Positions 30,224 to 41,791 of a DNA stretch of 41,791 nucleotides are shown piece after piece (position 1 is the first letter of the stretch; each line of letters opens with the position of its first letter). The stretch lies in assembly GCA_023954635.1 (NCBI GenBank), contig JAGSHI010000017.1, positions 1 to 41,791 on the forward strand, in the 5' to 3' direction. Source of the stretch: Bacteriovoracaceae bacterium. GTDB lineage: Bacteria > Bdellovibrionota > Bacteriovoracia > Bacteriovoracales > Bacteriovoracaceae. The notes under the pieces were generated by a model. That model was not told where the DNA came from and searched no databases. It was given only the letters and a program-made list of their open reading frames with translations. The position numbers and the translations under genes are program-made.

Positions 30224-30448
30224 TTTATCTCCAATAATTATCTTAATCCCGACTCAAAAAGTTGATTTTTCATTACCCACATATAACGGGGCTTTAGGTG
30301 ATTCCAAAGGAAACACCGATAGTCGTTGTCAGCTAATTTATCATAAAAAAATCAATAATAATGACAAAAAGTTTAAAGACTTAGGTCTATTTTCCCGATT
30401 AATTTCATGAAGTCGAGTTTTTTGCGAAAGTCGTTTTGGAGGACAGTT

Positions 30449-32869
30449 ATGGTTACAAACTACGAGGGTGACAACATTGAGTTCAAAGAAGATCTCCCCC
30501 TCTTACCCGTCAGGGACATCGTAGTTTACCCGTTTATGATTTTGCCCCTCTTCGTAGGAAGAGAGTCAAGTATTCAAGCGGTTGAGCACGCACTCAATCA
30601 AAGTAATAGATTGATTCTTCTCTCAAGTCAGAAAGACATTACTGCTGAGAGTCCTGCACCGAGTGAAATTTATGAATTAGGTACAGTTGCAATGATCATG
30701 AGAATGAGAAAGTTGCCAGATGGAAGAATTAAAATTCTTGTGCAAGGTTTAACAAAAGCAAGAATTAAAAGCTTTAATCAAGAAGAGCCCTACTTTGTTG
30801 CTAATGTAGACAAAGTTGAAGACATGAAAGAGGAATCTGCAAACGTTGCCGTGAGTGCTTTGATGAGGACGATTCGAGAGCAACTGGAAAGAGTTATTAC
30901 TCAAGGTAAAATTCTTTCACCAGATATCCTTATGGTTCTCGAAGATATTCAGGATCCAGGCCGACTGGCTGACCTTGTTGCTTCAAACCTCAACTTGCAT
31001 GTTGGTGAAGCTCAAATGATTCTTGAAATTCTTGATCCAATCGAAAGACTGAATCGAATCAATGATATTCTGGCCAGAGAGCTAGAGATTTTGGCCATGC
31101 AAGCCAAGATTAAAAATAATGCAAAAGAAGAAATCTCCAAAGGTCAAAAAGAGTTTTTTCTCCGTGAACAAATCAAGGCCATTAAAAGTGAACTTGGTGA
31201 TAATGGTGGAGTTGAAGAACCTGAAGATGAAATTGGTGAATTCAAAGAGAAAGTAAAACAAGCCAAGATGCCTGAAGAGGTTGAGAAAGAAACTCTCAAA
31301 CAACTTACTCGGCTCGAAAAAATGCATCCGGATTCTTCAGAATCTAGCATTGTAAGAAGTTACCTTGAATGGCTTACGGAACTTCCTTGGTCAGTCAGTT
31401 CTGAAGAACATTTAGACCTAGAGCTTGCTCAAAAAGTTTTAGACGAAGACCATTTTGATCTTAGACAAATTAAAGAAAGAATTCTTGAGTACCTTGCAGT
31501 TAGAAGACTAAAAGGCAACGAAATGAAGGGACCAATCCTTTGTTTTAGTGGTCCTCCAGGAGTTGGGAAAACATCTCTTGGAAAATCAATTGCCAAAGCA
31601 ATGGGACGAGAATTTGTAAGAATCAGTCTTGGTGGTGTTAAAGACGAGGCTGAAATTAGAGGTCATAGAAGAACTTATGTTGGTTCAATGCCAGGTAGAG
31701 TTATTCAATCTCTCAAACAAGTTAAAACAAATAATCCTGTCATTCTACTTGATGAAGTTGATAAGTTAGGAGGAGATTTTAAGGGTGATCCATCATCGGC
31801 ACTACTTGAAGTTCTTGACCCTGAACAAAATTCAACTTTTAGGGATCATTATTTAAATCTACCGTTCGACCTTTCAAACGTGATGTTTATTGCAACATCA
31901 AACGTACTTGAAAATATTCCAGGTCCGCTCAGAGATAGAATGGAAGTTATAAACCTAAGTGGTTATACCCAAGAAGAGAAAATTCAAATTTCTAAGAAAT
32001 ACCTTATTCCAAAGCAAATGGAAGAGAATGGAATTAATGACGATCATATTTCATTTACAGATGAGGGTGTTTCGACAGTTATTGAAGGTTTCACTTCTGA
32101 AGCTGGTTTAAGAAATCTTGAAAGAAAAATTGGTGCACTTTGCCGAAAAGTTGCAATGAAAATTGCAAAAGGTGAAGCAAACACTACTGATATTGTATCA
32201 AATACTGTTTTTAAACTTCTTGGACCTCCTGTTTTCACTAGTGAAGATGAAAATAAGGTTAATGAGGTTGGAGTTTGTACAGGACTTGCTTGGACTGCAG
32301 CAGGTGGACAAATTCTTTATATTGAATCAACTAAAATGAAAGGAAAGGGTCTTACTCTTACCGGTCAGCTTGGTGATGTCATGAAAGAATCTGCTCAGAC
32401 AGCAGTTGGATTCATTAGAAGTCGTGCCGCTGATTTCAAAATTAGTGAAGATGCATTTGAAGAAAATGAAATTCATATCCATCTACCGGCCGGTGCCATC
32501 CCTAAGGACGGACCAAGTGCAGGTATTACTCTTGCGACGACGATAATTAGTCTTCTTACGGATTTACCAATTAAGAAGTCTGTTGCAATGACAGGTGAGA
32601 TTACTTTGACAGGAAAAGTTCTTCCCGTTGGAGGAGTTAAAGAGAAGGCCCTTGCGGCCATGAGAAAGAATATTGATACTGTTATCATCCCATGGAAAAA
32701 TCAAAAAGATCTTGTTGATATTCCTGATGAGTACAGAGAAAAGATCAATTTCATACCTGTTAAAAACTTCGAAGAAGTTCTTGAGATCGCCCTAGACGGT
32801 TGGAAGACTTACTCTAAGAAAACAAAGAAATCTAAAAAGAAAACAAATACGACTCCGATGGCTGCATAA
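30449..32869 (+). CDS. lon: ATP-dependent Lon protease (LonA)
   Basis: LonA degrades misfolded and regulatory proteins in the cytoplasm. The 806-residue protein has the N-terminal substrate-binding domain (LPLLPVRDIVVYPFMILPLFVGR), a helical linker, and the AAA+ module with Walker A SGPPGVGKTSLGKS and Walker B NPVILLDEVDK. The C-terminal Ser-Lys protease has the catalytic Ser in KDGPSAGITLA and Lys in GGVKEKALAA. The start at 30449 has a perfect GGAGG six bases upstream; the frame is open to 30407 but without such a site. No CIRCE-type heat-shock element was seen in the 225 bases shared with glmU. A basic KKTKKSKKK tail ends the protein. Confidence 0.97.
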   Translation: MVTNYEGDNIEFKEDLPLLPVRDIVVYPFMILPLFVGRESSIQAVEHALNQSNRLILLSSQKDITAESPAPSEIYELGTVAMIMRMRKLPDGRIKILVQGLTKARIKSFNQEEPYFVANVDKVEDMKEESANVAVSALMRTIREQLERVITQGKILSPDILMVLEDIQDPGRLADLVASNLNLHVGEAQMILEILDPIERLNRINDILARELEILAMQAKIKNNAKEEISKGQKEFFLREQIKAIKSELGDNGGVEEPEDEIGEFKEKVKQAKMPEEVEKETLKQLTRLEKMHPDSSESSIVRSYLEWLTELPWSVSSEEHLDLELAQKVLDEDHFDLRQIKERILEYLAVRRLKGNEMKGPILCFSGPPGVGKTSLGKSIAKAMGREFVRISLGGVKDEAEIRGHRRTYVGSMPGRVIQSLKQVKTNNPVILLDEVDKLGGDFKGDPSSALLEVLDPEQNSTFRDHYLNLPFDLSNVMFIATSNVLENIPGPLRDRMEVINLSGYTQEEKIQISKKYLIPKQMEENGINDDHISFTDEGVSTVIEGFTSEAGLRNLERKIGALCRKVAMKIAKGEANTTDIVSNTVFKLLGPPVFTSEDENKVNEVGVCTGLAWTAAGGQILYIESTKMKGKGLTLTGQLGDVMKESAQTAVGFIRSRAADFKISEDAFEENEIHIHLPAGAIPKDGPSAGITLATTIISLLTDLPIKKSVAMTGEITLTGKVLPVGGVKEKALAAMRKNIDTVIIPWKNQKDLVDIPDEYREKINFIPVKNFEEVLEIALDGWKTYSKKTKKSKKKTNTTPMAA

Positions 32870-32974: not shown

Positions 32975-33364
32975 ATGGGTGCTAAGGAAAAACTTAGAGT
33001 AGTTGTGGTTGATGATTCTGAATTTAGCAGACAATCAACCGTTGAAATTTTAAATGAAGATGGCTTTTCAGTAATAGGTTCATTTGGATCAGCAGAAGAG
33101 GTTCTCTCATTTTTAAGAACAGGTGAAGCAGATCTTTATCTTATCGATGTTGTGATGCCCGACATGTCTGGTATTGAACTCGCAAAGGAAGTAAGTGGAA
33201 TGCTCATGGAAACTTATATCATAATGATGTCGAGTTTAAATACAGAGAGTATTGTCATTGAATCTATTTCTAATGGGGCCATTGATTTTTTACCAAAGCC
33301 ATTTGAAAAAGAAGATCTCTTAAATGCAGTAAATAAAATAGTTAGGGACATCGAAAAAGGGTAA
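32975..33364 (+). CDS. Stand-alone response regulator receiver protein (CheY-like)
   Basis: This 129-residue protein is a single receiver domain with the full set of phosphorylation residues: acidic pair Asp13/Asp14, phospho-acceptor Asp58 in YLIDVVMPDMSG, Ser86/Ser87 in the switch position, and Lys108 in FLPKPF. It has no output domain, so it would act by binding a partner, like CheY or Spo0F. AAGGA stands six bases before the ATG. No kinase gene is adjacent; a small exported protein follows five bases downstream in the same unit. Confidence 0.93.
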   Translation: MGAKEKLRVVVVDDSEFSRQSTVEILNEDGFSVIGSFGSAEEVLSFLRTGEADLYLIDVVMPDMSGIELAKEVSGMLMETYIIMMSSLNTESIVIESISNGAIDFLPKPFEKEDLLNAVNKIVRDIEKG

Positions 33365-33369
33365 GCAAT

Positions 33370-33735
33370 ATGCTATTCATGATTAAGTTTACAGTTTATT
33401 TTTCTATTAGTTTTATCATCATGTGTATTCCGGTTAACAATAAGACTTTATTCAATCTTATTCATAAACATGCCAAACCGTATACGACTCAAATCTTTAG
33501 TAAGGTTGAATATGAAGCTGGGGAGCAAATAAAGAAAGGCAGCAAGTTTACAAAAAAGTTTTTCTCAAATAGCAATCCTCCTCATCAAGATCAGGTTATT
33601 TCAAAATTTTCTTCAACTAGAAAAGAAACTTTTAAGAATGTAGAGGAACTTATTAAAAATGACGGGGAAGATTCTGAGGAATACTCAAGGGAAGAAAAAG
33701 AACTTTTAAACAAGATATTAAAAGAGGCCCAGTAA
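33370..33735 (+). CDS. Small exported or membrane-anchored protein, unknown
   Basis: The 121-residue product starts with a hydrophobic helix (about residues 3-21, FMIKFTVYFSISFIIMCIP) that can be a signal anchor, then a basic middle part and a strongly acidic, helical C-terminus. No family was recognised. The gene follows the receiver gene by five bases, with AAAGGG eight to ten bases before the ATG, and its stop codon lies in the loop of the terminator hairpin. An internal ATG three codons later would also fit. A link to the response regulator is suggested only by co-transcription. Confidence 0.6.
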   Translation: MLFMIKFTVYFSISFIIMCIPVNNKTLFNLIHKHAKPYTTQIFSKVEYEAGEQIKKGSKFTKKFFSNSNPPHQDQVISKFSSTRKETFKNVEELIKNDGEDSEEYSREEKELLNKILKEAQ

Positions 33736-33747: not shown

Positions 33748-33780
33748 AACAACAACGTAAACATATTTTCTTCAGCTTAA

Positions 33781-33880
33781 CTTCAACTTTAACTTCAACA
33801 TTTATAGCTTCAACTTCAACTTCAACATTTACAGCTTCAACTTTAACTTCAACATTTATAACTTCAACTTTAACTTCAAC
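33781..33880. repeat. 27-bp tandem repeat, 3.7 copies
   Basis: Units at 33781-33807, 33808-33834 and 33835-33861, plus a partial unit at 33862-33880, share the pattern CTTCAACTTYAACTTCAACATTTAYAR and differ at only three positions. Each unit is itself built on a six-base CTTCAA-like period. On the minus strand each unit reads as a complete eight-codon frame, ATG to TAA, with Leu/Lys alternation. The block lies between the terminator at 33721-33747 and the stop of the secreted peptide gene, probably in that gene's 3' untranslated region. Confidence 0.9.
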
Positions 33881-33894
33881 GAATAACTTTTAAA

Positions 33895-34086
33895 TTATCT
33901 TCCACTTGCTGTAGTTCCATTATTTGACTCAACATCTCCTGAAGCAACAGGAGCAGACTCTTGGTTAGCTCTACTAATTTGTGAAGAAGCATCACAATCT
34001 GTGTGATCATTCTCACCTTCCGCAAATGCATTAGTAGATCCAATAACTAAAACTAAAAGAAAAATAAACGATGATAACTTTTTCAT
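33895..34086 (-). CDS. Secreted single-cysteine peptide 1
   Basis: This 63-residue precursor has a clear signal peptide (MKKLSSFIFLLVLVIGSTNA-FA) and an approximately 41-residue mature part rich in Ser, Asn, Asp and Glu with a single cysteine (Cys31 in HTDCDASSQ). It ends GTTASGR. Size, single Cys near the mature N-terminus, the VASGD/VSGD motif and the GTTA end match peptide 2 (35747-35932) and more loosely peptide 3 (36125-36307), so they form a paralogous family. GGAGGG lies four bases before the ATG at 34086; the frame is open to 34140 but the promoter lies in that part. It has a sigma-54-like promoter. Function is unknown. Confidence 0.8.
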   Translation of the reverse strand: MKKLSSFIFLLVLVIGSTNAFAEGENDHTDCDASSQISRANQESAPVASGDVESNNGTTASGR

Positions 34087-34123: not shown

Positions 34124-34139
34124 TGCAGGGTTTGTGCCA
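34124..34139 (-). promoter_or_regulatory. Sigma-54-type promoter (-24/-12) of secreted peptide 1
   Basis: The minus strand reads TGGCACAAACCCTGCA: the invariant GG and GC of the sigma-54 consensus (TGGCAC-N5-TTGCA) are at the correct 12-base spacing, with only one departure in the conserved positions. It lies 38 bases upstream of the ATG, leaving a leader of about 27 bases. The same element at the same distance precedes secreted peptide 2. Confidence 0.7.
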
Positions 34140-34251
34140 AAATTATGTATTATAAAATTCAATACTTACACTTAGAAAAGTGTATAGAAATGTGACTTTG
34201 TCTAAATATTCGACGAATTTTGGCCCTTTCCTAGGTATGGCCCTCTTTATC

Positions 34252-35637
34252 TCATCCAAGAAATTTCAATAACTTACGTACAGTACTAACCTTCGAGTCT
34301 GTATAGGGAGGATATTTGATAGGAATATCCATAAAGAGCTTTCTACGCATAACCGCTCGATAATGTGAAAATGTATCGAAGGAATACTTACCATGATAGC
34401 GACCCATTCCAGAGGCCCCAACTCCACCAAAAGGGAGGGTGTCACTAGAGAGGTGAATTAAAGTATCGTTAATACATACCCCACCCGAAGTTGTCTCAGT
34501 TAAGATTTTCTCTTCTATATAGTTATCACTTGTAAACACATAGAGGGCCAAAGGCTTAGGTCTCGAGTTTACATAATCGATGCCCTCCTGAAGAGATTTG
34601 ATTTTAATTATTGGACATAAAGGACCAAATATTTCGTCTCTCATAATGACAGAGTCAAAGTTTGCTTCAATAACAGTTGGTGCAATATAGCATGTGTCTT
34701 TATTACTCTCTCCACCGATGAGAACTTGGTCTTTTTCAAAGTAACTTAAAAGCCTATCAAAATGTCTTTGATTGATAATCTTTCCATAATCATCTGAAGC
34801 TGAAGGGTCACTTCCAAATAACTCTTTGATATGAGCTTTGAATAATCGTACCGTTTCATCAAAGTATCTTTCTTCAACTAAAAGGTAATCTGGAGCAACA
34901 CAGGTCTGACCGGCATTAAAAAACTTCCCCCAAGTAACTCGTTTGATGGCTAACTCAAGATCGAGATCTCCAACAATAAAACATGGACTTTTCCCCCCTA
35001 ACTCTAGAGTTACGGGAGTAAGATGGCGGGAGGCCTTCTCCATAATAATCTTTCCAACAAATTCGTTTCCTGTATAAAAAATATAATCAAATGGAAGCTC
35101 TAACAAGGCCTGAGTTTCTTCAACAGCACCTTCTACAACGCTAATAACGCCATTTTCAAAGTACTTTGGAATAAGTTCAGCTACTATATCAGAAGTGTGA
35201 GAGGCGACCTCTGAGGGCTTCAAAATGGCCGTATTCCCCGCTGCGAGGGCACCGATCAAGGGTGAGAGCAATAACTGAAAGGGATAGTTCCAGGGACTAA
35301 TGATGAGTACCGTACCAAGAGGCTCAGGTTTTACATAAGAGCTTGCAGGAAAATGAATTAACGAAGTTGAAACCCTCTTCTTCTTGGCCCACTTGTCTAA
35401 GTGACCTAAAGTTTTTTGGATTTCTTGAACTACGAAACCTGTCTCACTGGTAAAGGCCTCAAACTCACCTTTTTTAAGATCTTTATAGAGTGCCTCATGA
35501 ATCGACTTTTCATTCTCTTCAACTAGCTTTTTTAAGTTATTTAATTGCTGCCTTCTATACTCTATAGATTGAGTTCTTCCTGTTTTAAAAAAAGATTTTT
35601 GATTTTCAAAGATATCTGAGATTGAGCCTTGATTCAT
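34252..35637 (-). CDS. Aldehyde dehydrogenase, class 3 / fatty-aldehyde type
   Basis: This NAD(P)-dependent enzyme oxidises aldehydes to acids. The 461-residue length, shorter than the approximately 500 of class 1/2, fits the class 3 group. Visible motifs are the nucleotide-binding ISPWNYPFQLLLSPLIGALAAGN, the catalytic Glu in LELGGKSPCF, the catalytic Cys in FFNAGQTCVAPDY, and EIFGPLCPI. Substrates may be medium- or long-chain aldehydes, such as those from lipid breakdown; this is inferred. AGGGA lies about eight bases before the ATG. It sits between two of the small peptide genes on the same strand, with a terminator before it. Confidence 0.92.
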   Translation of the reverse strand: MNQGSISDIFENQKSFFKTGRTQSIEYRRQQLNNLKKLVEENEKSIHEALYKDLKKGEFEAFTSETGFVVQEIQKTLGHLDKWAKKKRVSTSLIHFPASSYVKPEPLGTVLIISPWNYPFQLLLSPLIGALAAGNTAILKPSEVASHTSDIVAELIPKYFENGVISVVEGAVEETQALLELPFDYIFYTGNEFVGKIIMEKASRHLTPVTLELGGKSPCFIVGDLDLELAIKRVTWGKFFNAGQTCVAPDYLLVEERYFDETVRLFKAHIKELFGSDPSASDDYGKIINQRHFDRLLSYFEKDQVLIGGESNKDTCYIAPTVIEANFDSVIMRDEIFGPLCPIIKIKSLQEGIDYVNSRPKPLALYVFTSDNYIEEKILTETTSGGVCINDTLIHLSSDTLPFGGVGASGMGRYHGKYSFDTFSHYRAVMRRKLFMDIPIKYPPYTDSKVSTVRKLLKFLG

Positions 35638-35715: not shown

Positions 35716-35746
35716 CTTAAACTTCGCTTTAGGGGGGGGACTTTTT

Positions 35747-35932
35747 TTACTGTTGTGTAGCTGTAGTTCCTACTTCTTCGTTACTTGATGATTGATCACC
35801 CGATACTGCAACGTTTTCATAAGATCTACTACTTTGGTCTGATGCTGTACATTCTGTTGATGCCATCTCACCAGCTGCAAACGTTTGACTTGAAATCATC
35901 AACGTAAATGCAATTAAAATTAACTTCTTCAT
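35747..35932 (-). CDS. Secreted single-cysteine peptide 2
   Basis: This 61-residue precursor has a signal peptide MKKLILIAFTLMISSQTFAA and a mature part of about 41 residues, rich in Ser, Glu and Thr, with a single cysteine (Cys28 in STECTASDQ), a VSGDQ motif and the ending GTTATQQ. It is similar to peptide 1 in length, Cys position and these motifs. GGAGG precedes the ATG by six bases, a sigma-54-like promoter lies 38 bases upstream, and an intrinsic terminator follows, so it is a compact single-gene unit. Predicted to be exported; whether the free Cys forms dimers, is modified or anchors the peptide is unknown. Confidence 0.8.
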   Translation of the reverse strand: MKKLILIAFTLMISSQTFAAGEMASTECTASDQSSRSYENVAVSGDQSSSNEEVGTTATQQ

Positions 35933-35969
35933 AACAACCTCCAGGCTTTATCTCTTTGGGAATATTAAA

Positions 35970-35985
35970 TGCATGATGCATGCCA
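35970..35985 (-). promoter_or_regulatory. Sigma-54-type promoter (-24/-12) of secreted peptide 2
   Basis: The minus strand reads TGGCATGCATCATGCA, with the GG and GC pairs of the sigma-54 consensus exactly 12 bases apart. The element starts 38 bases before the ATG, the same distance as at peptide 1, and the leaders share AAAGAG and GGAGG blocks. No good sigma-70 boxes were seen at this spot. Confidence 0.68.
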
Positions 35986-36067
35986 AAAGGAATGTAATAG
36001 AATTCGAATGGTTAGTGGGGTCTGAGTGTATAAAGTTTAGACAGATGGTCTTAAGCTTGAACAAAAA

Positions 36068-36094
36068 AAGGGCATACGTTAGACGTATGCCCTT
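36068..36094 (-). terminator. Intrinsic terminator after secreted peptide 3
   Basis: A perfect 11-base stem (AAGGGCATACG / CGTATGCCCTT) with a five-base loop is followed on the minus strand by a run of seven T counted with the stem end. The flanks are also A/T rich on the other side, so it may work in both directions. It lies 30 bases after the peptide 3 stop. Confidence 0.9.
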
Positions 36095-36124: not shown

Positions 36125-36307
36125 TTACTGTTGAGTACCAGGTCCACCACTTGTAGCAGTTTCCTCATCCACAGGGTTTACAACCGTAGTTTGATCACCT
36201 GTAGTACCGTCAACTGCAGTACACGGAGTTTCTGTTTCTTCAGCAAATACGTTTCCAACACTTCCGATCAACATCGTCATTATCATTAGTAGCTTCAGGG
36301 TTTTCAT
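36125..36307 (-). CDS. Secreted single-cysteine peptide 3
   Basis: This 60-residue precursor has a signal peptide ending VFA, then an acidic/Thr-rich mature part of about 38 residues with one cysteine (Cys29 in ETPCTAVDG) and the ending GPGTQQ. It shares length, Cys placement and the final TQQ with peptide 2, but is more diverged than peptides 1 and 2 are from each other. AGGAG lies seven bases before the ATG; a GTG one codon earlier is less likely. Unlike its relatives it has a sigma-70-like promoter. An intrinsic terminator follows. Function unknown. Confidence 0.77.
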   Translation of the reverse strand: MKTLKLLMIMTMLIGSVGNVFAEETETPCTAVDGTTGDQTTVVNPVDEETATSGGPGTQQ

Positions 36308-36426: not shown

Positions 36427-38055
36427 CTACATATTCAGGTTTACACCTGCCGGCTTCACAATGCTTAGTAAGCTTTGGAACGCCTGGGTAACTTGTAGTG
36501 CCATCTTGTGCCCTGACTTAGACTCAACCTTCTTGATTTCACCATAGTTGTCATAAGCAACATTGATCTTTCCTACTTTGTTCATAGAAATCTCAACTGG
36601 TTTTCCAAGAGCGTTGTACTTGAAAGTCAAAGTTCTCTTCTTTTTCTTTTTCTTGTCGTAATCTACCATCTTAGTGATTCTTCCTTTTCTATCGTAGATA
36701 AGAAGAACAGATTTCCCTTTAGCATTTGTTGCTTTTGAGAGATTTCCTTTTTTGTCGTACTCGAAGTTTGTCCAACCCTTGTTGTTAACAACTCTTGTAA
36801 TTTTGTTGTACTTTTTGTGATACGCAAGCTTAACAAAGTCACCTTTAGTACTAGTCTTAGAAGTTAGAAGACCTTTCTTGTTGTACTCAAAAGTTGTTAC
36901 GTGGTTTCCTCTTGTGATTTTAAGAGGAAGTGAACAACATTCTGAATAAATTGTTTCAGTCTTAAATCCATTGATTTCAGTTAGGATTCTATAAGTATAT
37001 TGAGATCCATCAGGACGGGCCTTGATTTCATACTCATACTTATTTTTAGCTTCTTTTCCGTTTGGTGTCTTTTTAGTAACAATTGTCCAGTAGTGAAAGT
37101 CTGGGTTCTTAGGATTTGACCCGTACTCATACTTAGTTGACTCTTTATTACGATCAACAATCTCTGTAACAAACTGTGTTTTCTTATTATAGTTAATTGT
37201 CTTTTTTGATCCATCAGCATAATCAATATTGACCATATTATGGTGTCCATCAAACCCGTACTTAAATAGGTTTCCAGCAACATCTTTAGTCTCAATAAGA
37301 TCATCACCTTTGTATCTGTAAGAAACTTTTTTATCTCCTACTGACCAGATTTCTTTAACTTTTCCATCTGGGTACCAAGAGAAGAATAATTGCTTCGCTT
37401 GTGAGTCTTTAATACTCTTTAAACTACTAGACTTGTCGTATGCGAACTCAACAGTGTAACCATTCTTGTCTTTGATTTTTGTTAGCTTTCCAGAACCATT
37501 AAAGTATTCAGTTTTTCCATCGTTATAAACTCTTTTAAAACCTTTCTTTGTTTTATGAACCTGTTGAAGACCTCTTGTATTTGAGTAGAGAACTGTACCA
37601 GAAGCCAACTTTGCTTTTACTGAAAATTTCTTAGCGTAAGCTTGTCTAATTTCAGCATCACCCATAAGTTTCTTTTTAAGAGTTTCAGCAACTTTGTCAG
37701 AGACAGTTGTTTTCTTTCTCATGGCTTCAATAATTTTATTTGCAGCAGCTGCAGGATCAACAGCAGACTTCGGTGTAAACCTCGTCATTGCACCAGAACC
37801 ATTTTCGTGAACAATCACAGATCCATCAGCTGAAACTGATAAATATGTTTCATAATCACTACCCCAACCAAAACCAAACCATCCGGTATCAGTCGATCGA
37901 GAGTTGTAAGTTCTGACAACTTTTAAATCATGCCCACCACCTGGAACAATAATGTCCGTGTATGAGATATAAAAGTTACCGTTTTTTAAATTTACACCTG
38001 CAAATAATGTTGCTGGAATAAATAAACATAACACTAAAAGTCTAAACAGCTTCAT
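36427..38055 (-). CDS. Secreted RHS/YD-repeat protein
   Basis: The 542-residue protein has a signal peptide (MKLFRLLVLCLFIPATLFAG), then an RHS N-terminal segment (GNFYISYTDIIVPGGGHDLKVVRTYNSRS...GWGSDYETYLS) and many YD-type repeats such as YDKKGNLSKATNAKGKS, YDRKGRITKMVDYDKK and YNALGKPVEISMN. RHS repeats fold into a beta cage that in other bacteria encloses a toxin or adhesive domain. Here the RHS core motif and a distinct C-terminal toxin were not seen; the protein ends in a short hydrophobic helix-like tail. At 542 residues it is small for the family. AAAGGA stands eight bases before the ATG. It is encoded downstream of the Tad genes on the same strand. Confidence 0.83.
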   Translation of the reverse strand: MKLFRLLVLCLFIPATLFAGVNLKNGNFYISYTDIIVPGGGHDLKVVRTYNSRSTDTGWFGFGWGSDYETYLSVSADGSVIVHENGSGAMTRFTPKSAVDPAAAANKIIEAMRKKTTVSDKVAETLKKKLMGDAEIRQAYAKKFSVKAKLASGTVLYSNTRGLQQVHKTKKGFKRVYNDGKTEYFNGSGKLTKIKDKNGYTVEFAYDKSSSLKSIKDSQAKQLFFSWYPDGKVKEIWSVGDKKVSYRYKGDDLIETKDVAGNLFKYGFDGHHNMVNIDYADGSKKTINYNKKTQFVTEIVDRNKESTKYEYGSNPKNPDFHYWTIVTKKTPNGKEAKNKYEYEIKARPDGSQYTYRILTEINGFKTETIYSECCSLPLKITRGNHVTTFEYNKKGLLTSKTSTKGDFVKLAYHKKYNKITRVVNNKGWTNFEYDKKGNLSKATNAKGKSVLLIYDRKGRITKMVDYDKKKKKKRTLTFKYNALGKPVEISMNKVGKINVAYDNYGEIKKVESKSGHKMALQVTQAFQSLLSIVKPAGVNLNM

Positions 38056-38148: not shown

Positions 38149-39039
38149 CTAAACTTCGATCTTTACAATCTTCAAAATGATGATTCCACCAATAATATCA
38201 AGTATTAAAGCCCCTATTGTGAAGGCCCAGCCGACAGGTGTGGTGAACATTAACATCATAGAATCAGGGTCAGAAACGTAATAAATCATCCCAATCGCAA
38301 ATGGCATACAGAAAATAGTAGCTCCCTGAAACATCCCCTGGGCCACATAAGTCTCAATTTTTTGCCTAAGCCTAACTCGTTCTCTAATGACGTGAACAAT
38401 TGTGTCGAATACTTCAGCTAAGTTACCACCTGTTTCTCTAAGAATGTTAACAGAGGCCACAAACATATCATTATCTTGAGTCGGAACTCTTTGGGCCAAG
38501 TTATCAAGACACTCCTCTAGAGGAACGCCAATCTTATTTTGTTGGAGGATCATATTAAATTCTTGGCTAATTGGAGCTGGCATCTCATCTACGATCATAC
38601 CAATTGCCTGTGGCATAGAAAGGCCTGCTCTAATTCCATTAGAAAGAAGCTGAAGAGCATCTACCATTTGCAGACCGTAAGCATTGATTCTTCTCTCATA
38701 CATATTATCTATAAAAGGTTTTGGAATTTTAAATCCTGCAAAAGAAACCATCATTCCGAGGAAAAAACCTAATACCCACTTTCCAACGACACCAAACAAA
38801 AGAAAAACAATAGAACCAAGTCCAATTGAAATAAATAAAAGGAAGTAAGTTACATGCTCTGGCTTAACCTCAATAAACATGAGTTCAAGTTTTTCCATGA
38901 TATAAGTTCTTGTCCCTAGAGTTTGTCTCTCAATCCAATCAAAAATGGCATGACTATGTTTAAAGCTGAAAAGGAATACCATTAGGCCCGTTAAGCCTAT
39001 GATTCCTACATCTCCTAACATTTTGACAAAGGTTTCCAT
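38149..39039 (-). CDS. GspF/TadB-TadC-family inner membrane protein
   Basis: The 296-residue protein has membrane helices at both ends and the T2SSF domain signature in the middle (LQMVDALQLLSNGIRAGLSMPQAIGMI and VPLEECLDNLAQRVPTQDNDMFVASVNILRETGGNLAEVFDTI). It is the inner-membrane platform of a Tad/Flp-type system, turned by the TadA ATPase encoded five bases upstream. Tad systems normally have two such proteins (TadB and TadC); only one is present before the RHS gene, so the partner would be elsewhere or not needed. Which of the two this is cannot be settled by eye. Confidence 0.88.
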   Translation of the reverse strand: METFVKMLGDVGIIGLTGLMVFLFSFKHSHAIFDWIERQTLGTRTYIMEKLELMFIEVKPEHVTYFLLFISIGLGSIVFLLFGVVGKWVLGFFLGMMVSFAGFKIPKPFIDNMYERRINAYGLQMVDALQLLSNGIRAGLSMPQAIGMIVDEMPAPISQEFNMILQQNKIGVPLEECLDNLAQRVPTQDNDMFVASVNILRETGGNLAEVFDTIVHVIRERVRLRQKIETYVAQGMFQGATIFCMPFAIGMIYYVSDPDSMMLMFTTPVGWAFTIGALILDIIGGIIILKIVKIEV

Positions 39040-39044
39040 AATAT

Positions 39045-41240
39045 TTACCCGGCCTTCTTCTTACCGCCACCTTTTTTGGGATCACCGCCCTTCCCGGGAG
39101 GTGGTGCCTTCTTTGGATCTGGTTTTTTAGCTGGGGCGGCATCATTTTGAAATAGCCCTCTTGGTATGTTGTAACCTTGCTTTTCTAACTTCTCGATAAA
39201 CATTGGAATAAAACCTGTAGCTTGAAATTCACCTACAATCTTTCCATCTTTTCCAATTCCTTTTTGCACATAAAGAAAGATATCCTGAAGGGTAACAACA
39301 TCTCCTTGCATCCCTCCAATCTCTGTAATGTGGGTCAACCTTCTAGAACCATCATCAAGTCTGGATTGTTGAATAACCATGTGAACAGCATTCGCAATCA
39401 TTTCCTTAATGGCCTTTGGACTTAATCCCGCACCAGCATATTGAACAAGTGTTTCTAAACGACCAATACTCTCTCTTGGATTATTGGAGTGAACAGTAGT
39501 CATCGAACCGTCGTGACCTGTACCCATGGCCTGTAACATATCAAGGGTTTCACCACCACGACACTCCCCAACCACGATACGATCAGGTCTCATTCTCAGA
39601 GTTTGTTTAACAAGACAACGAATATCAATTGCACCATCTCCTTCTAGAGAAGGTGGACGTGTTTCTAATCTCACGACGTGATCTTGTGGAAAATCAAGTT
39701 CAGCAGAGTCTTCACAAGTAATAATACGTTCGTTTGCTTGGATAAAACCTCCAAGAACGTTAATCAAAGTTGTTTTACCAGAACCGGTACCACCACTCAC
39801 GACGATATTTCTGTGGGCTTCAACTGCAATCCTTAAAAAGTCACCCATGTTTTGAGTAATTGATCCAAACTTAACAAGGTCTTTCCATGTAAGCCGATTT
39901 TCTGGGAATTTTCTAATTGTAATTGTACAACCATCTAGAGCACATGGAGGAATAATAGCGTGAACCCTTGACCCATCTGCAAGCCTTGCATCAACGTAAG
40001 GAGTTTTTTCATCAATTCTTCTACCAATAGGAGCAACAATTCTTTCGATGACATTTAGAACTTGTCTATCATCAGAAAAGATAACTTCTGATTTTTTAAT
40101 TTTCCCATCATGCTCATAGAAAATTTTCTCTGGACCAACAACCATAATCTCAGAACAATTTTTATCAGAGAGAAGGTCTTCTAATGGTCCAAGACCTAAG
40201 GCCTCATCAATGATTTCTTTCACGATTCGATTCATATCATCACGTGAGTTAAGTATTCCCTTTGTATCTTCTTTACCAAGAAGGTCTACAATGAGTTTTT
40301 TTGTTTGTTCCTTTAGAATAATTTGAGCTTTAGGATCGTTATCATCTTGTTTAGAGAGATCCATCTCTTCAATAAGCGCTTTGTGAATTCTTCTTTTAAG
40401 TCCCACCCAATTATTCTGGGTCTTTTTTTCATCTGCACTACTTGCTTTCCCTCCAGCTTTTTTTACGTCTGTAGGTTTATTAAGTTTGGCTAGTGACTTT
40501 AAAACATTTTTTTGAATAATTTTTCTAGCGAGCTCGATCATTCCTTTTGCAAAAACGGAGTTTTTAAGCGCAATCATGACAGGCATTCTTTTATTTAAGG
40601 CCTGAACACAGGATTGATCATCTTTTGGGACAGAGGCGAAAACAGGTTTTCCAATAGATTTACCGACAACCTCTGGGGTTACGGGGTGTCCTTTAACTGA
40701 TTGGTTAAGAACAATTTGCATCATGTCTTTAGGAAACATCATTGTAACGAGATCAGAGTACATTCTCTTTGTTTGATTTAAGGCCAAAATATCTGGAGTT
40801 GTTACGAGAAAAATCAAAGTTGTGTACTCTAGGGCCTTTGAACATAAGTCGTTTAACTCTCCACCACCATCAATAATAGTTAAAGGGTAAATATTTGTGA
40901 TGGCCTTGAGGGTTTTCCCCAGTGCTTCAGCATTTATTCCTTCACTCGCAGTAGGATCAGAAGGCATACCAATATACATTACCCCTGCTGGGTGAGGAGA
41001 AACAAATTGTACGATAGATTTAGGATCAATTGCTCCCGTAAATTCAGAAAGGTCTTTAACTGTTTTTTTAGGCTTGATCCCTGTAATCAAGTTTTGATCA
41101 CCAGATGCTTTTTGATCAAAGTCGAGAAGAAGAACTTTCTGTCTCGCTTCCCCTGCATAGGCAAAGGCCAAATTGGCAGCGACCTGGGATTTCCCTTGTC
41201 CACCTTTTCCACCAATAATTGTAATTATATGACCGGCCAT
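39045..41240 (-). CDS. TadZ/CpaE - TadA/CpaF fusion ATPase
   Basis: This 731-residue protein joins two Tad components usually made separately. Residues 1-about 250 are a ParA/MinD-like ATPase (TadZ/CpaE, which localises the machine) with a deviant Walker A GKGGQGKSQ (residues 11-19) and LLLDFDQ. A Lys/Ala-rich linker (about 250-275) leads to a TadA/CpaF secretion ATPase (about 280-690) with Walker A GGTGSGKTT (483-491), the Asp box IITCEDSAELDF, Walker B RIVVGECRG and the His box GHDGSMTTVHSNNPRES. A Pro/Lys/Gly-rich tail (700-731) ends the chain. Its ATG overlaps the secretin stop by one base (TAATG). Confidence 0.92.
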   Translation of the reverse strand: MAGHIITIIGGKGGQGKSQVAANLAFAYAGEARQKVLLLDFDQKASGDQNLITGIKPKKTVKDLSEFTGAIDPKSIVQFVSPHPAGVMYIGMPSDPTASEGINAEALGKTLKAITNIYPLTIIDGGGELNDLCSKALEYTTLIFLVTTPDILALNQTKRMYSDLVTMMFPKDMMQIVLNQSVKGHPVTPEVVGKSIGKPVFASVPKDDQSCVQALNKRMPVMIALKNSVFAKGMIELARKIIQKNVLKSLAKLNKPTDVKKAGGKASSADEKKTQNNWVGLKRRIHKALIEEMDLSKQDDNDPKAQIILKEQTKKLIVDLLGKEDTKGILNSRDDMNRIVKEIIDEALGLGPLEDLLSDKNCSEIMVVGPEKIFYEHDGKIKKSEVIFSDDRQVLNVIERIVAPIGRRIDEKTPYVDARLADGSRVHAIIPPCALDGCTITIRKFPENRLTWKDLVKFGSITQNMGDFLRIAVEAHRNIVVSGGTGSGKTTLINVLGGFIQANERIITCEDSAELDFPQDHVVRLETRPPSLEGDGAIDIRCLVKQTLRMRPDRIVVGECRGGETLDMLQAMGTGHDGSMTTVHSNNPRESIGRLETLVQYAGAGLSPKAIKEMIANAVHMVIQQSRLDDGSRRLTHITEIGGMQGDVVTLQDIFLYVQKGIGKDGKIVGEFQATGFIPMFIEKLEKQGYNIPRGLFQNDAAPAKKPDPKKAPPPGKGGDPKKGGGKKKAG

Positions 41241-41791
41241 TATCGATTCCTCTGCCTAAACTTTTTCTTAATCTCTTCTGAACCTTGAGAGGCAGACTCT
41301 AGGATTTCAGGTGTAACAAATATGACAAACTGACTTCGGTTTGAAACATAACTTTTTGACTTAATAAAAGAGAACAACGGTTGTCCCCCTTCAACAGTTT
41401 GAACACCTCCAGGAGGATTTCTATCAAAATCAGTAGCACTTCGGTTTATAACCACACCACCGACGACAGCTGATTCTTTTGATTTAACAATGATATTTGT
41501 ATTAATTGTGTTACTTAACACTTCTGGAGGTTGCCCAATGGTTGAACTGACAGAGACTCCCATATTTAAATCAATTTTCTCTTCTTGAAGAATTTTTGGA
41601 GTCACACTTAGGTCAAATCCTGACTTTGCTTCATCAGCACGAGTAAATTCACCAGTACCTAGCGCAAACTTCTTACTCGAACTTTTTTGAATTTTTCCTG
41701 TTACACCATCTTTAATTACAACAACTCCTGATTGTATAACCCTAGCGTGACCAGCACTTTTAGCTGATGCGAGTTTTGGGAATAGGTTAGA
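41240..41791 (-). CDS. Secretin (CpaC/RcpA-like), C-terminal part, cut by window edge
   Basis: The frame is open from the right edge and encodes the last 183 residues of a secretin, the outer-membrane channel of Tad/type II systems. Secretin-domain signatures are FDLSVTPKILQEEKIDLNM, the ESAVVGGVVINR strand and PLFSFIKSKSYVSNRSQFVIFVTPEIL. The short version starting at the GTG at 41605 is not a real start, since the frame and the similarity continue upstream to the edge. It overlaps the TadZ-TadA start by one base, so it belongs to the same operon. Confidence 0.88.
   Translation of the reverse strand, partial: SNLFPKLASAKSAGHARVIQSGVVVIKDGVTGKIQKSSSKKFALGTGEFTRADEAKSGFDLSVTPKILQEEKIDLNMGVSVSSTIGQPPEVLSNTINTNIIVKSKESAVVGGVVINRSATDFDRNPPGGVQTVEGGQPLFSFIKSKSYVSNRSQFVIFVTPEILESASQGSEEIKKKFRQRNR

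Follow-up and report, generated by a model that had tools for sequence, protein, structure and literature searches.

The search for the input that sets the predatory or the prey-independent state of Bdellovibrio has long been directed at bd0108, a gene of the hit (host-interaction) locus. Its product is described in PMC4267844 as disordered and as binding weakly to Bd0109 through the N-terminal half of Bd0108. Mutants of bd0108 show altered pilus extrusion and an altered host-independent growth switch (PMC3818213), and effects of hit-locus mutations on pili and prey-independent growth are known only for Bdellovibrio (PMC3818213). For Bacteriovorax (Halobacteriovorax) marinus SJ, the passages of PMC4267844 on this organism report BMS_0183 and BMS_0184, two small signal-peptide neighbours of BMS_0182 without homology to Bd0108.

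Organization of the locus

The window analysed here is the complete stretch of 41,791 nucleotides from a Bacteriovoracaceae genome; the two congeners of this organism in the named collection are uncultured MAGs. The features referred to below are as follows.

30407-32869, plus strand: Lon-type protease (assignment from sequence), kept beside the locus in Bacteriovoracales
32975-33364, plus strand: single-domain response regulator; conserved neighbour
33370-33735, plus strand: small convergent membrane protein without a Pfam family; conserved neighbour
33895-34086, minus strand: peptide 1, pepA-type, 63 aa, single Cys
34124-34139, minus strand: -24/-12 (sigma-54) promoter TGGCACAAACCCTGCA of peptide 1, ending 37 nt before the ATG
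34199-34215, minus strand: upstream palindrome CGTCGAATATTTAGACA of peptide 1 (putative activator site), two mismatches, 59 nt before the -24 element
34252-35637, minus strand: aldehyde dehydrogenase, separating the two pepA copies and present in only some relatives
35747-35932, minus strand: peptide 2, pepA-type, 61 aa, a signal peptide and a hydrophilic single-Cys tail of ~40 residues; relatives known
35970-35985, minus strand: -24/-12 (sigma-54) promoter TGGCATGCATCATGCA of peptide 2, ending 37 nt before the ATG
36027-36043, minus strand: upstream palindrome TGTCTAAACTTTATACA of peptide 2 (putative activator site), TGTCT-N7-AGACA with one mismatch, 41 nt before the -24 element
36063-36092, minus strand: terminator-like hairpin GGGCATACG-TCTAA-CGTATGCCC-T7 between pepB and the promoter of peptide 2, read from the sequence directly
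36125-36307, minus strand: third peptide, pepB-type, 60 aa, single Cys, lacking a sigma-54 promoter; follows the YD gene as the first of the small genes
36427-38055, minus strand: YD/RHS-repeat protein, 542 aa, homologue of Bd0109 (Pfam RHS_repeat, DUF6531)
38149-41563, minus strand: Tad/type IVb pilus genes, namely T2SSF (TadC-like), a ParA and T2SSE ATPase (TadA-like) and a secretin fragment; kept beside the YD gene in relatives

The cluster is laid out like the hit locus of Bdellovibrio. The Bd0109 homologue (34% identity over 540 aa to HD100 Bd0109) is encoded at the end of the Tad/type IVb cluster, small signal-peptide proteins of disordered type follow directly 3' (pepB in the window, Bd0108 in HD100), and facing them are convergent genes for a small membrane protein and a response regulator, as in the hit locus. 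In every Bdellovibrio species examined, HD100 among them, a first peptide gene without a sigma-54 promoter (bd0108 or its counterpart) is likewise followed by a single-Cys peptide gene with one, and pepB is therefore the positional counterpart of Bd0108. The window differs from the Bd0108 locus as described in holding several peptides instead of one, although HD100 itself has one besides Bd0108.

Relatives were obtained as 80 named Bacteriovoracales loci retrieved via the YD protein. Simple filtering of their ORFs for signal peptides yielded 75 pepB and 128 pepA genes, a small number of the latter being probably spurious. The gene order in the family is Tad, YD, pepB, pepA, (aldehyde dehydrogenase), pepA, followed by the convergent membrane protein, the response regulator and lon. 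Wherever this could be tested, Tad genes were next to the YD gene (75/75 and 72/72), and the 75 pepB genes in the 80 loci lie no more than 160 nt from the YD gene. Genome G004 fits B. marinus SJ by gene position, with its YD gene at 188 kb; the positions of BMS_0183 and BMS_0184 are taken there by pepB and the first pepA. The passages of PMC4267844 on B. marinus give only the signal peptides and the absence of Bd0108 homology; sigma-54 promoters, a second pepA and a family are not described in them.

The original prediction had treated peptides 1 and 2, with an unrelated dehydrogenase between them, as a co-regulated family of small secreted peptides. Both ORFs were confirmed in translation with the predicted lengths of 61 and 63 aa, with Cys28 in peptide 2 and Cys31 in peptide 1, and with VSGD/ASGD and GTTA near their C-termini; AAAGAG and GGAGG were found in both leaders, as had been noted. 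Between the two ORFs lies an aldehyde dehydrogenase gene (Pfam Aldedh, 2.6e-87), but only as an optional insert, present in 14 of the 69 loci with enough sequence; elsewhere the two pepA copies are adjacent. Further members of the family were found in the third peptide of the window and in nearly all relatives. The finding is supported and is wider than was stated; the third peptide (36125-36307), the activator-like upstream palindromes and the hit-locus context had not been noticed; what the peptides may do is considered in the last section.

The mature parts of pepA, pepB and Bd0108 were compared as profiles and showed no detectable homology (probabilities of about 3% or less). Equivalence across the two classes therefore rests on position, architecture and promoter, and membership of the Bd0108 family is not claimed. 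NCBIfam NF053838 (hit_Bd0108) matches HD100 Bd0108 at 1.9e-29 and gave no match to the three window peptides or to HD100 pepA; no NCBIfam model matched the 66-aa peptide of HD100 described below. The CxxC of the Bd0108 family is absent from the window peptides, which have one Cys each, and was found among relatives in 24/75 pepB and 1/128 pepA. Exactly one Cys is present in the mature part of 126 of the 128 pepA proteins, and many pepB proteins have three to five. The single-Cys peptides with sigma-54 promoters are thus unlike Bd0108 in having a promoter of their own, no CxxC and no detectable homology.

In AlphaFold2, only the signal helix of peptide 2 was predicted, the rest being of low confidence. 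Flp/Tad pilins are marked by a short prepilin leader and, behind it, a hydrophobic stretch of the mature protein; this was not found, and a Sec-type signal peptide is followed instead by a hydrophilic tail. Matches to DUF6488, DUF6520, Asr and PtrA in Pfam/NCBIfam were weak, driven by the signal peptide and below the cut-offs, and were rejected. Four loci retrieved through weak protein matches (L091 and L093-L095) proved to be unrelated, and a search of Rfam found nothing.

Several smaller observations were made in these sequences. The C-termini of pepA and pepB tend to be alike, with a small or hydrophobic residue at -4 and -3 and a final K or Q, and peptides of one genome often agree in this pattern. 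A 27-nt unit, CTTCAACTTTAACTTCAACATTTATAG, is repeated in tandem (3.7 copies, window 33770-33880) between the gene of the convergent membrane protein and peptide 1, and a run of eight G lies just 3' of peptide 2 (35733-35740).

Sigma-54 promoters and upstream palindromes

The two pepA promoters of the window share their geometry, as originally claimed, with the same distance to the start codon in both; the spacing to the ATG is 37 nt, not the 38 nt given. A strict promoter box was found at 93/128 pepA and 0/75 pepB genes of the 80 loci, with a TGG-to-ATG distance of 46-76 nt. The reversed pattern gave only three matches in 1.71 M strand-bases. Using a weight matrix, a near-consensus box was located at 28 of the 35 pepA genes that lack a strict one; the best pepB score was 3.9, against a minimum of 13 among strict sites. 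Conservation is limited to the -24/-12 bases, and the interior of the spacer is random.

The genome of the window organism (3.7 Mb) was surveyed by searches and by the stretches around matches. The pattern TGGCAYN6TGCA occurs at 26 sites, against none for its reverse, and the genome has a full rpoN gene and several activators with intact GAFTGA-type loops. A genome-wide search of this kind had been expected to reveal more one-Cys peptides; it returned mostly larger exported proteins instead. With a conserved -24/-12 element at promoter distance, and with rpoN and GAFTGA-type activators present, regulation of pepA by sigma-54 is well supported at the sequence level, and pepA would be expected to depend on sigma-54 in vivo.

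The word TGTCTAAA, which is half of TGTCT-N7-AGACA, lies upstream of 36 of 95 pepA promoters (1 expected). The whole palindrome, with two mismatches or fewer, was found at 72/95 (9 in shuffled sequence); it is rare elsewhere, at 5/75 pepB upstream regions and in 32/240 random windows. Spacers of 4, 5, 6, 8 and 10 showed no excess over background, and the weaker enrichment at 9 and 11 depends on allowing two mismatches. Because the sequences share descent, these counts do not represent independent events. Distances from the palindrome to the -24 element cluster at ~40, 50, 59, 69 and 80 nt, and their best period within the range 3-20 was 10.2 bp (R 0.74; the null maximum in 2000 random sets was 0.385). 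Steps of ~10 bp are as expected of an activator dimer on one face of the helix, turned toward the polymerase. The combination of a -24/-12 element with a dimeric upstream palindrome in helical phase is like that of NtrC-type sigma-54 promoters; a literature search for PilR-type TGTC sites gave no match. The shared promoter type and distance, together with the phased upstream element in relatives, strongly support the co-regulation of these small signal-peptide proteins that had been proposed from two genes.

The corresponding gene in Bdellovibrio

The HD100 genome was recognized by the published bd0108 primer sequence and by NCBIfam hit_Bd0108. Just 3' of bd0108 it encodes a 66-aa single-Cys peptide (L107, 6484-6684), and TGGCACACGCGATGCA sits between the terminator-like hairpin of bd0108 and the start of this gene. 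The strict pattern is at background in HD100 as a whole (7 sites, 10 reversed), so the HD100 pepA site matters only through its conservation. A strict box and a single-Cys signal-peptide ORF were present in all 22 parseable Bdellovibrio loci and in a 23rd read from its promoter match; in the 22 loci, bd0108 or its counterpart lies 12-16 nt after the YD gene and lacks the box. Several Bdellovibrio species have a tandem pair of the sigma-54 peptide genes. In seven loci from other Bdellovibrionaceae, a pepA-like ORF is present but the box is not.

Most Bdellovibrio pepA promoters carry, in the same helical phase, a TGTCTA-type element (-87 to -111), and most also carry a second palindrome, TGTCTCA-N3-TGAGACA, 7 nt upstream of the -24 element. 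The latter was first read as the TGTCT-N7-AGACA activator site; it appears to be separate, because the TGTCTA-type element stands farther upstream. TGTCTCA-N3-TGAGACA is over-represented in HD100, with 22 exact TGTCT-N7-AGACA sites against 6 reversed.

In the literature searched, RpoN of Bdellovibrio is named only as the predicted gene bd0843, bd0107 is not mentioned, bd0106 and bd0105 are not mentioned in Bdellovibrio papers, and no account of a sigma-54-driven peptide of HD100 or the hit locus was found. For the sigma-54 peptides, an extra component of the hit locus, we found no description in that literature. They are a conserved, probably sigma-54-controlled peptide component of the locus.

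Proposed role and wider regulon

We favour, with reasonable but far from full confidence, the reading that peptides 1 and 2 are a sigma-54-controlled arm of the hit locus, acting as weak YD/RHS ligands that tune pilus extrusion and the growth or predation state. An enhancer-binding activator on TGTCT-N7-AGACA would open RNA polymerase-sigma-54 at the -24/-12 promoter, and synthesis of the peptides would therefore answer to a signal and be uncoupled from that of the pilus operon and pepB. Given their Sec-type signal peptide and their short, disordered tail with one Cys, they should be exported. They are predicted to be disordered and lie beside a Bd0109 homologue; additional, separately switched ligands of the YD protein seem the most economical reading, and by analogy with Bd0108 on Bd0109 the exported peptides may bind the neighbouring YD/RHS protein weakly and so influence pilus extrusion and the growth or predation state. 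More tentatively, and at somewhat less than even chance, the hit locus may be a multi-peptide switch, in which a single-Cys peptide under sigma-54 and activator control acts on the YD protein in competition with Bd0108 or as its complement, feeding an outside signal into pilus extrusion and the decision between predation and free growth.

Other readings were weighed against the conserved setting. Many of the 26 sigma-54 sites of the window genome stand before genes for exported proteins and lipoproteins, the TGTCT-N7-AGACA palindrome being shared by several, and the most conserved response-regulator activator adjoins lspA in three genomes; the peptides could accordingly be general envelope or stress products of a sigma-54 exported-protein regulon, merely parked beside YD and Tad and without a pilus or predation role. 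We regard this as unlikely, given that the peptides stay at one locus across two classes and vary in copy number there, and that the Tad genes adjoin the YD gene in every testable locus. Less probable still is that they are substrates secreted via the Tad machinery, acting like adhesins or signals toward prey or siblings rather than as YD regulators. The adjoining Tad genes would suit such a role, as would the small size, the signal peptide, the variable sequence with a conserved Cys and the loosely conserved C-terminal pattern; the peptides nevertheless resemble Sec substrates, lack the hydrophobic stretch of Flp pilins and revealed no Tad export signal. That the GG-N10-GC boxes arose by chance, with transcription starting from a different promoter, is very hard to reconcile with the conservation of the box, its spacing, its absence from pepB and the phased upstream element.

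The proposed sigma-54-controlled arm is of consequence for the question raised at bd0108: a second peptide there, under a recognizable sigma-54 switch that is conserved across two classes, and in multiple copies in some lineages, is a testable regulator, and RpoN with an enhancer-binding activator offers a signalling route.

Two candidate activators of the window genome, each with an intact GAFTGA loop, have a reciprocal best match in HD100. One is a response regulator (L283, 1532-3028) encoded beside a 632-aa histidine-kinase-type protein and lspA, with 54% identity to its HD100 match and an almost identical DNA-recognition helix; the lspA neighbour recurs in L309 and L311. The other (L282, 5509-7053; 48% identity) has a C-terminus that resembles flagellar activators. 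Activator-like AAA proteins that lack the GAFTGA loop (L286, 1452-3002; L282, 1540-2487; and orthologues) are conserved in the family and are probably not sigma-54 activators.

Among the products encoded behind the other palindrome-bearing sigma-54 sites of the window genome are an exported protein of 274 aa and a lipoprotein. A protein that looks similar to the 274-aa one and is likewise controlled is present in genome G009. An exported protein of ~275 aa with a sigma-54 box and the palindrome was seen in two genera (L077, 2064-2888, the copy there being without a Pfam family; and L288, minus strand), and is possibly another conserved target of TGTCT-N7-AGACA control.
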